A stretch of DNA of 64,000 nucleotides from Dyella sp. BiH032 (GTDB lineage: Bacteria; Pseudomonadota; Gammaproteobacteria; Xanthomonadales; Rhodanobacteraceae), in contig NZ_CP134867.1 of assembly GCF_031954525.1 (NCBI RefSeq), positions 3,472,001-3,536,000 on the forward strand, read 5' to 3'. This document shows, one piece after another, positions 38,445-39,540 of the stretch. A program made the position numbers and the translations under genes. Below the pieces are notes generated by a model. That model worked only from the letters and a program-made list of their open reading frames with translations. It ran no database searches and had not been told where the DNA came from. Position 1 is the first letter of the stretch, and each line of letters begins with the position of its first letter.

Positions 38445-38670
38445 GGGCGCTTTGCACGGGCTTCGATGAAGGGCGCGCTTCGCCGTGCAGGGTGGGGATT
38501 GTGAGGTCCATCCATGGGCCTCACCCCTCCGCGCTACGCGCTACGGGGCCAGCCTGCGGCTGTCCAAATTTGTTCCTGACAAATTTGTCGAACCAGCTGC
38601 TCGGCGCGTTACGCCGAGTGGCTGGTTCTATTGGTCCTCTCTTCGCCAGATACGCAAAGCGCCGCTCTCG
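38445..38670. repeat. Tandem hairpin-rich repeat, copy 1 (226 bp)
   Basis: One of two adjoining units of equal length, roughly 85-90% identical by eye, beginning GGGCGCTTTGC. It contains CAAATTTGT-tcctg-ACAAATTTG (38565-38587). It also has a 16-bp stem (38591-38606 with 38612-38627, two G-T pairs) and, at its end, a hairpin GCAAAGCGCC.../...GGCGCTTTGC shared with copy 2. No coding potential. Bases 38390-38444 before it hold only a weak inverted repeat (38418-38441). Confidence 0.9.
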
Positions 38671-38896
38671 GGGCGCTTTGCATTGGGCTTCGATGAAGGT
38701 GCGCTTCGCCGTGCAGGGTGGGGATTGTGAGGCCTATCCATGGGCCACCCCTCCGCGCTACGCGCTACGGGGCCAGCCTGCGGCTGTCCAAATTTGTTCC
38801 TGACAAATTTGTCGAACCGGCCACTCGGCGCGTTGCACCGAGTGGCCGGTTCTCTTGATCCTCTCTCTCCGCCAGATACGCAAAACGCCCCTCTCG
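38671..38896. repeat. Tandem hairpin-rich repeat, copy 2 (226 bp)
   Basis: Second unit, directly abutting copy 1. The CAAATTTG dyad is at 38789-38811 and the long stem at 38815-38828 with 38838-38851. Relative to copy 1 one base pair of this stem is changed on both sides (A-T to G-C), and both G-T pairs have become Watson-Crick. This points to selection for the fold, or at least for the dyad. Its right end runs into the hairpin next to tRNA-Ser, where an 11-bp fragment of a third unit (GGGCGCTTTGC) begins. Confidence 0.9.
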
Positions 38897-38927
38897 GGGC
38901 GCTTTGCGTATCTGGCGGAGAGAGAGG
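38860..38927 (-). terminator. 32-bp inverted repeat that includes the tRNA-Ser terminator
   Basis: Arms 38860-38891 and 38896-38927 pair with a single mismatch around a TCTC loop. The right arm contains the last 15 bases of tRNA-Ser, so the left arm is an inverted copy of the tRNA 3' end. The inner part, read on minus, is a GC hairpin followed by TTTT, which should terminate the tRNA transcript. Confidence 0.85.
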
Positions 38928-39005
38928 GATTCGAACCCTCGATAAGGCTTTTGACCCTATACTCCCTTAGCAGGGGAGCCCCTTCGGCCTCTCGGGCATC
39001 TCTCC
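38913..39005 (-). tRNA. tRNA-Ser (anticodon GCT)
   Basis: A 93-base class II tRNA. The acceptor stem GGAGAGA (5') pairs with TCTCTCC, the discriminator is G, and CCA is encoded at 38915-38913. The anticodon loop reads CTGCTAA, giving GCT (AGC/AGT codons). It has a long variable arm and a GGTTCGAAT T-loop. It follows csrA, the same order as serV behind csrA in E. coli. Confidence 0.95.
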
Positions 39006-39076: not shown

Positions 39077-39280
39077 TCAGTGGTCGTCCGAGCCGTTGGA
39101 GCCGCCTTCCGGCTTGTGCTCGTTCTGGATCCGCTGATAGATCTCTTCGCGATGTACGGCTACGTTCTTGGGCGCATTGATGCCGATACGCACCTGATTG
39201 CCCTTCACGCCCAGAACGGTGACGGTCACCTCGTCGCCGATCATCAGGGTTTCACCGACCCTGCGGGTCAGAATCAACAT
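39077..39280 (-). CDS. csrA: Carbon storage regulator CsrA
   Basis: RNA-binding global post-transcriptional regulator, 67 aa. Starts [20 protein letters not shown]; an in-frame GTG nine bases upstream is less likely because GGAG is eight bases from the chosen ATG. Contains [21 protein letters not shown], with the key RNA-contact Arg of VAVHREE. An ANGGA motif (ATGGA, 39294-39290 on minus) overlaps its own Shine-Dalgarno and another lies at 39375-39371, suggesting self-repression. The 260 bases up to alaS show no other gene. Confidence 0.96.
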
Positions 39281-39540
39281 GTTTGCCACTCCATGAAAGC
39301 TATGTGGTCACAGGCCAGCAGATGATGAAACCTCACCCCTGAGCTACACCATCTGAATTTCGACGAACTGTCCATCGAAGGCCCTACCGCCTTCCCCGGC
39401 ACGACAGCGGGAGGCTCAGGAGCATCCCGCCGACCGGCGACACCGCAATGAGCGTAGCCGACATTCGTCCGATACTAGCCGAGCGCGCGCGCGCTGTGCA
39501 ATGCGCGCGGCCTATGGCATGTGGTCTATTCACCTGCGTT

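Follow-up and report, generated by a model that had tools for sequence, protein, structure and literature searches.

The 64,000-nt stretch of the Dyella sp. BiH032 genome analysed here (the window) carries, directly 3' of tRNA-Ser(GCT), a tandem pair of 226-bp repeats that belongs to a large, mostly unrecognised repeat family behind tRNA and other stable RNA genes. We think it probable that the pair represents two adjacent units of a palindromic DNA repeat of the RtT-like kind, found across the phylum and itself probably mobile, whose core is nested in a duplicated stable-RNA 3' end. The family is a far wider relative of the RtT repeats, and its members look more like copied DNA hairpins than working RNA.

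Anatomy of the tandem pair

The two copies, at 38445-38670 and 38671-38896, are 91% identical and spaced 226 bp start to start. Repeat comparison and inspection of the sequence confirmed what a sequence-only reading of this DNA had described, namely two tandem, hairpin-rich 226-bp repeats beside tRNA-Ser, each containing CAAATTTG dyads, a long stem (38590-38628 and 38814-38852) and an end hairpin. The copies do have the same overall length of 226 bp, but compensating indels lie underneath, with one stretch spaced 224 and others 226. That no open reading frame explains the repeat also held: none of the five overlapping ORFs of at least 60 aa has a Pfam match, and a protein-coding repeat was rejected on this ground. 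When folding was compared with dinucleotide shuffles, the plus-strand copies gave z values of -6.3 and -7.2, and the minus strand of both copies together gave -11.9.

Read along the minus strand, the locus runs from an alaS-like ORF (identified by eye) through csrA, which the sequence-only reading had overlooked, and tRNA-Ser(GCT) to the two units. Cores were located with R1, a covariance model built from 24 cores. The features are:

39077..39289, minus strand: csrA, upstream of the tRNA (Pfam PF02599, E 1e-26; genome hit 3511125-3511280)
38913..39005, minus strand: tRNA-Ser(GCT), the host stable RNA gene (ARAGORN, Rfam tRNA)
38875..38912, minus strand: hairpin directly 3' of the tRNA, 17-bp stem and GAGA loop (sequence, inverted repeat, fold)
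38860..38874, minus strand: proximal unit, the final 15 nt of tRNA-Ser in perfect antisense (TGGCGGAGAGAGAGG; sequence and repeat comparison)
38814..38852, minus strand: H0 stem of the proximal unit, the long stem of the sequence-only reading (sequence, repeats, fold)
38726..38811, minus strand: core of the proximal unit, hairpins H1-H4 (R1 match, 108.4 bits)
38709..38725, minus strand: downstream of the core, tRNA 3' end in sense orientation, decayed, ATCCCC... (sequence versus intact copies in relatives)
38654..38681, minus strand: hairpin between the two units (sequence, repeats)
38636..38648, minus strand: imperfect remnant of the antisense tRNA-Ser 3' end, distal unit (sequence, repeats)
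38590..38628, minus strand: H0 stem of the distal unit (repeats)
38500..38587, minus strand: core of the distal unit, hairpins H1-H4 (R1 match, 120.1 bits)

From the tRNA outwards, the order is CCA, the 17-bp hairpin, the antisense copy, H0, GGTTCGA, H1-H4, ATCCCC with the decayed tRNA 3' end, a hairpin and then the second unit. The four-hairpin core is about 85-100 nt long; its R1 matches span contig positions 3510720-3510818 (window 38720-38818) in the proximal unit and 3510494-3510594 (window 38494-38594) in the distal unit. In the proximal unit, the end of H0 overlaps the T-arm start GGTTCGA at 38818-38812, the H1 loop is CAGGA (38802-38798) and the H4 loop is ATGGAT (38741-38736). In tRNA numbering, a break between positions 58 and 59 leaves GGTTCGA on one side of the T-loop and ATCC on the other; the core, lying between these two sequences, therefore occupies the T-loop position.

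The window unit has a perfect 15-nt antisense copy of the tRNA-Ser 3' end and a decayed sense copy, and full sense copies are present in many relatives. A further element overlooked by the sequence-only reading is a 32-nt inverted repeat, 97% complementary (38860-38891 versus 38896-38927), the outer 15 nt of which are the last 15 nt of tRNA-Ser and the perfect antisense copy of those. The palindrome of the hairpin at 38875..38912 extends into the tRNA-Ser 3' end, and a consensus terminator scan called no terminator at this hairpin. As a separate observation, Rfam model RF04351 (Plastid-psbl-rps4) matches the antisense of bacterial tRNA-Ser below its cut-off, on the plus strand of the window at 38916-38970 and at several other loci.

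Distribution of the family

Copies occur in hundreds of genomes, and the outcome that would have refuted the sequence-only reading, an absence of further copies and of covariation, clearly did not arise. A DNA search found the repeat in 19 of 41 genomes. With R1, we found matches in 185 of 233 genomes (22 of 26 genera) of the bacterial family, in 167 of 299 genomes (61 of 85 genera) of the order and, at E 1e-5, in 133 of 369 genomes of the class. A broader model, R2, built from all 91 matches of an R1 locus search with the weak ones included, detected the element in 79 of 299 genomes of the phylum at E 1e-5, and 53 of these 79 lie outside the class. Each count of positive genomes includes the window's own genome, and copy numbers from searches of more than 40 genomes are lower bounds, as the filters were stricter and the number of candidates per genome was capped. 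The own genome holds four units by R1 and no others; these form two arrays, the second of which has two units, lies behind tRNA-Ser(TGA) and includes the flanking sequence of its own locus.

The R1 locus search took in 158 of 178 loci and omitted overlapping duplicates, the sX4 loci discussed below and L154, which is 100 bases long. From 199 unique hits we dropped 19 under 35 bits, leaving 180 hits of at least 35 bits for analysis. One caveat here is that the loci read were top-scoring matches plus places chosen from listings, and hence weak and lost copies are under-represented. Our literature search found no account of the hairpin-core family as such; it covered subscription papers only thinly, so this is not proof that the family is unpublished.

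Position, orientation and host 3' ends

When each of the 180 hits was placed relative to the nearest tRNA or tmRNA within 500 nt, 132 lay 3' of the gene and 18 before it, both groups on the same strand, while 3 were on the opposite strand, 3 were farther away and 24 had no tRNA or tmRNA in the locus. Hits near a tRNA or tmRNA thus share the strand of the gene in 150 of 153 cases. In the window this is the minus strand, and the biological strand of the pair is the tRNA strand rather than the plus strand that the sequence-only reading had favoured for an RNA. Six of the 24 tRNA-less hits (L066, L077, L080, L085, L086 and L092) adjoin tRNA-Ser 3' fragments, an arrangement like that at the distal ends of islands (by eye).

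The hosts comprise tRNAs for Ser (four isoacceptors), Gln, Arg, Glu and Pro as well as tmRNA, and, by eye, 5S rRNA (L143 and E. coli rrnB). Many units carry the 3' end of their own host. In 59 of 93 first units, the sequence after the core scores higher with the own tRNA than with any of the other isotypes, and in the remaining 34 another isotype is equal or better; in the antisense arm before the core, the corresponding numbers are 66 and 27. Among the non-Ser units, the own 3' end reaches an alignment score of at least 15 of about 18 in 18 of 25 (4 of the 25 are tmRNA). A GA before the core and an A after it recur (by eye). Some cores interrupt incomplete tRNA copies, within the T-, D- or anticodon loop (by eye). 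When the core was removed in silico, ARAGORN called a junction-spanning tRNA in just 4 of 180 hits (L164 twice, L122 and L024).

Other copies lie away from tRNAs or in unrelated palindromes (partly judged by eye), and some of these are identical. The repeats are multi-copy, palindromic, non-coding and dispersed at unrelated loci, which are the properties of a mobile palindromic repeat. The sequence-only reading had left three options, a structured non-coding RNA, a transcript-end element or a mobile palindromic repeat; the last fits best, so its interpretation is supported in part.

Several individual loci were recorded alongside. At L016, L112, L119, L163, L164 and L122, a tRNA gene that is otherwise recognisable holds the core in its T-loop and is followed immediately by an intact copy; several of these interrupted genes are without the 3' acceptor strand (by eye). 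At L203, L205, L213, L214, L217 and L220, cores lie within or next to a different family of palindromic repeats (CCCTAAATAATTC...GGCGGCAAG...); L213 and L214 are identical cores at two places of one genome. Units of L036 and L037, at about 474-586 and 467-580 respectively, carry an insertion of ~250 bp inside core hairpin H2, flanked by the inverted repeats CTGCAGCAGTCG / CGACTGCTGCAG (by eye). At L044 (1112-1204), the core lies between two near-identical direct copies of about 70 bp each (by eye).

Covariation without strand bias

In the window itself, the sequence-only reading had relied on the long stem. It was correct that one pair changes on both sides (A-T to G-C) and that two G-T pairs of copy 1 are Watson-Crick in copy 2. 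It overlooked, in the same stem of copy 2, a C-A mismatch on the plus strand that is a G-U pair on the minus strand, where the stem folds unbroken. Because copy 2 has this minus-only pair, the strand argument from the long stem amounts to two pairs versus one.

Across the family, covariation is strong. In alignment A2, which comprises 86 distinct sequences and was fitted to the model, a procedure that biases it towards the paired structure, all 30 of 30 pairs change on both sides, 93.6% of cells pair, and the covariation score is 0.494, compared to at most 0.066 for slid structures. For an RNA under selection, departures from Watson-Crick pairing should be G-U on the RNA strand, with few A-C. 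Among 5,021 cells from the 180 hits we counted 41 G-U and 33 A-C departures (p 0.42), a comparison possibly blunted by misaligned pairs, in H4 above all; before the weak hits were dropped the counts were 51 and 40 (p 0.29). As a control, the acceptor and T stems of 82 tRNAs from the same loci gave 30 G-U and 0 A-C among 984 cells. By this measure, the stems show no sign of selection as RNA on one strand.

Since the wobble departures are strand-symmetric, covariation alone does not show an RNA here. The statistical equality of G-U and A-C departures makes the palindromes look DNA-maintained, and double changes with few wobble intermediates suggest that the arms have been copied from each other in DNA. 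It is mainly this combination, double changes accompanied by few and strand-symmetric wobble intermediates, that leads us to prefer a DNA element. Strong covariation is commonly taken to prove that an RNA is functional, and this family is a warning for RNA discovery based on covariation only; comparing G-U and A-C departures between strands is a simple test to add.

GGA loops and CsrA

GGA is present in the H1 loop of 171 of 180 hits, in the H4 loop of 168 and in both of 162, and is rare in the H2 (4/199 hits) and H3 (6/199) loops. The H1 loops are mostly C-N-GGA or AGGA and the H4 loops A-N-GGA-N; the latter, as the common H4 form, fit the CsrA form CANGGANG. Each typical unit thus has at least two apical GGA loops, as expected of a CsrA-sequestering RNA, and their presence in both end loops is unexplained by pure replication accident.

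These loops raise the possibility that stable-RNA transcripts carry the units as 3' trailers, which would act as decoys for CsrA/RsmA, with tandem units serving as multi-site sponges as in CsrB/RsmZ. We regard this alternative as tentative and rather unlikely. The window array follows csrA itself, but the order alaS-csrA-tRNA-Ser(GCU) is identical in E. coli, so csrA next door is ordinary synteny and not special to the window locus. In the phylum sample, csrA is found in 72 of 79 element-positive versus 108 of 220 element-negative genomes (Fisher p 4.5e-12; cross-tables compiled by hand from search lists), an association that would favour an RNA/CsrA role, though ancestry confounds it. Within the class it is weak (119 of 133 versus 194 of 236, p 0.07; likewise compiled by hand). 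The element is kept without detected csrA in 14 of 133 genomes of the class and 7 of 79 of the phylum, several of these genomes being incomplete.

Individual genomes point both ways. In G898, which is 95% complete and in which no csrA was found, GGA is gone from 3 of 4 H1 loops in hits above 40 bits, a point for the decoy role, although H4 keeps GGA and a fifth hit of 29 bits keeps it in H1. Conversely, GGA is kept without detected csrA in G577 (L169, three of three units) and G467 (L211), and has been lost from all three units of the congener G005 (L019), where csrA is directly upstream, as well as from the three E. coli rtT repeats. The lack of strand bias in the stems and, in the window, the hairpin that separates the tRNA from the unit also argue against decoys.

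PMC7694677 reports no CsrB/RsmZ-type homologue in sequenced Xanthomonas and describes an unrelated RsmA-sequestering RNA, RsmU; another two-loop GGA family is TwoAYGGAY, given as a predicted CsrA binder in PMC4333381. If CsrA does bind the GGA loops, Xanthomonas relatives, where no CsrB-type RNA is known, would have a candidate sponge in this family. Rfam gave no CsrB/RsmX/Y/Z or TwoAYGGAY match at the window.

A model for the origin of the units

The position and orientation of the units, the copies of the local host 3' end in many of them, the tandem arrays, the dispersal and the recurrence of this architecture at the tyrT and rrnB loci of E. coli were all observed directly. The DNA reading that we prefer would account for them as follows. 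The core would be a present or former mobile DNA element that entered palindrome loops, mostly of stable RNA genes. It occupies position 58/59, in the T-loop, of a duplicated stable-RNA 3' end; the host RNA gene is thereby left whole, with the core and an additional 3' end downstream. Template switching by a polymerase at the palindromes of the terminator and the T-stem may have produced the antisense arm, and unequal recombination the tandem copies. The hairpin arms would be kept identical by a DNA process rather than by selection on folded RNA; candidates are hairpin copying, template switching or ssDNA-hairpin recognition by an unnamed protein. Transcription, if any, would be minus-strand read-through from the tRNA.

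A broader version would combine this with the GGA loops. One unrecognised class of mobile element would home to stable-RNA loops phylum-wide, keeping each gene functional through duplication of its 3' end, and its two GGA hairpins would turn tRNA, tmRNA and 5S read-through transcripts into CsrA decoys; the E. coli tyrT and rrnB units would be local copies, some having lost the decoy loops. We consider this synthesis speculative and unlikely.

Alternatives to the DNA reading

The units could instead form an RtT-like processing module, in which the antisense arm and the 3' copy pair as an acceptor/T-stem minihelix ending in CCA and guide trimming or termination of the tRNA transcript. E. coli rttR, annotated as a small RNA within the same architecture, and the full CCA-ended copies of many units are consistent with this. 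In the window, however, the 3' copy is decayed while the antisense arm is intact, several other loci have a full 3' copy and a weak antisense arm, and the strand symmetry of the stems applies here as well; we judge such a module quite improbable.

Direct copies of tRNA 3' ends starting from the T-loop are typical of integration, and the lone tRNA 3' fragments mentioned above would suit leftover attachment sites of tRNA-integrating islands or phages. Against this, the same core is associated with several tRNAs, tmRNA and 5S rRNA, the accompanying 3' end often being the local one, the first tRNA-end copy of the window unit is inverted, and the window repeat has no match in plasmid or phage collections. 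This origin is very improbable, and an island attachment array was rejected on account of the inverted first copy and the many hosts. Finally, a functional structured non-coding RNA on the plus strand, as preferred by the sequence-only reading on the strength of two G-T pairs, is scarcely credible and was rejected on the orientation data, the minus-only pair of copy 2 also speaking against it.

Relation to known repeats and RNAs

Some Rfam families touch the same loci. At L171-L178 (genomes G398, G343, G454, G410, G307, G292, G003 and G091), sX4 (RF02223, 'Proteobacterial sRNA') corresponds in 8 of 8 loci to an entire tRNA-Ser(CGA) gene plus the sequence flanking it on the 3' side. For this reason we rejected sX4 as evidence of expression; the family may be a tRNA precursor that was catalogued as an sRNA. 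The full model of Aggregatibacter sRNA 22 (AaHKsRNA22, RF02902) matches a unit behind tmRNA (L140, 972-1067; 36.1 bits, E 0.003), one locus of 20 scanned, with a score under the gathering score of 39.8.

By description, REP, ERIC and BoxC elements are, like this family, short, palindromic, dispersed and mostly non-coding. Rickettsia palindromic elements are also short, palindromic, dispersed repeats, mostly non-coding. An identity with BoxC was dropped after consulting PMC2267715 and PMC4666352, because the latter describes BoxC as a triplex motif. The family shares with CsrB/RsmZ-type and TwoAYGGAY RNAs two or more hairpins with apical GGA, but differs from them in its strand-symmetric stems and in being embedded in copies of stable-RNA 3' ends.

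The closest likeness is to the RtT repeats. At E. coli tyrT/tyrV, the tRNA-Tyr end is followed by a spacer, an antisense arm, GGTTCGA, H1-H4 and ATCC...CCA, the same build as the window unit (by eye). As in the window pair, which repeats in tandem directly 3' of a same-strand tRNA, the tyrT/rtT units are tandem and 3' of a tRNA. Each rtT unit ends with the tRNA 3' end from T-loop to CCA. In Salmonella, a 175-bp VNTR is listed at rtT in PMC2658671. R1 matches the three rtT repeats with E 5e-5 to 9e-4 in 1.9 kb, at low scores of 14-18 bits, and covers them over model positions 1-101, so that the hairpin order from GGTTCGA to ATCC is the same. The E. coli rtT repeats differ in having no GGA loops and in their tRNA-Tyr host, compared with Ser, Gln, Arg, Glu, Pro, tmRNA and 5S (by eye) in the family.

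In a 150-kb search of E. coli, R2 detected the tyrT-tyrV unit (E 0.009) and missed the other three of the four RtT units at this locus; it had no match to the arg spacer units. The Rfam RtT model RF00391, which is independent of R1 and R2, matches both E. coli arg spacers, 3 of 19 non-E. coli loci (L169, L116 and L122) and 1 of 13 others (L018, from the window's family); the matches to the arg spacers and relatives have E 0.0008-0.025, all under the cut-off. It gave no match to the window up to E 10 or to L007 up to E 0.1, and hence nothing at the gathering score there.

In the same 150 kb, R2 also matches the spacer behind the rrnB 5S gene (67.8 bits, E 2e-17). This unit, with GGA loops, lies 75 nt past the 5S gene, and after it the 5S 3' end and its flank are repeated; it differs from the window in being single and in having 5S rRNA as its host. 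Rfam sees only 5S and one weak, doubtful match at this spacer. We take the unit to lie between terminators T1 and T2, a stretch presumably present in many expression vectors, and a site spanning at least 80% of the rrnB unit occurs in 3,912 of 5,426 E. coli genomes. A single family, precise in its anatomy, can thus be described that takes in the tyrT/rtT repeats, the arg spacers and the rrnB 5S spacer of E. coli together with unannotated repeats flanking tRNAs in hundreds of genomes.
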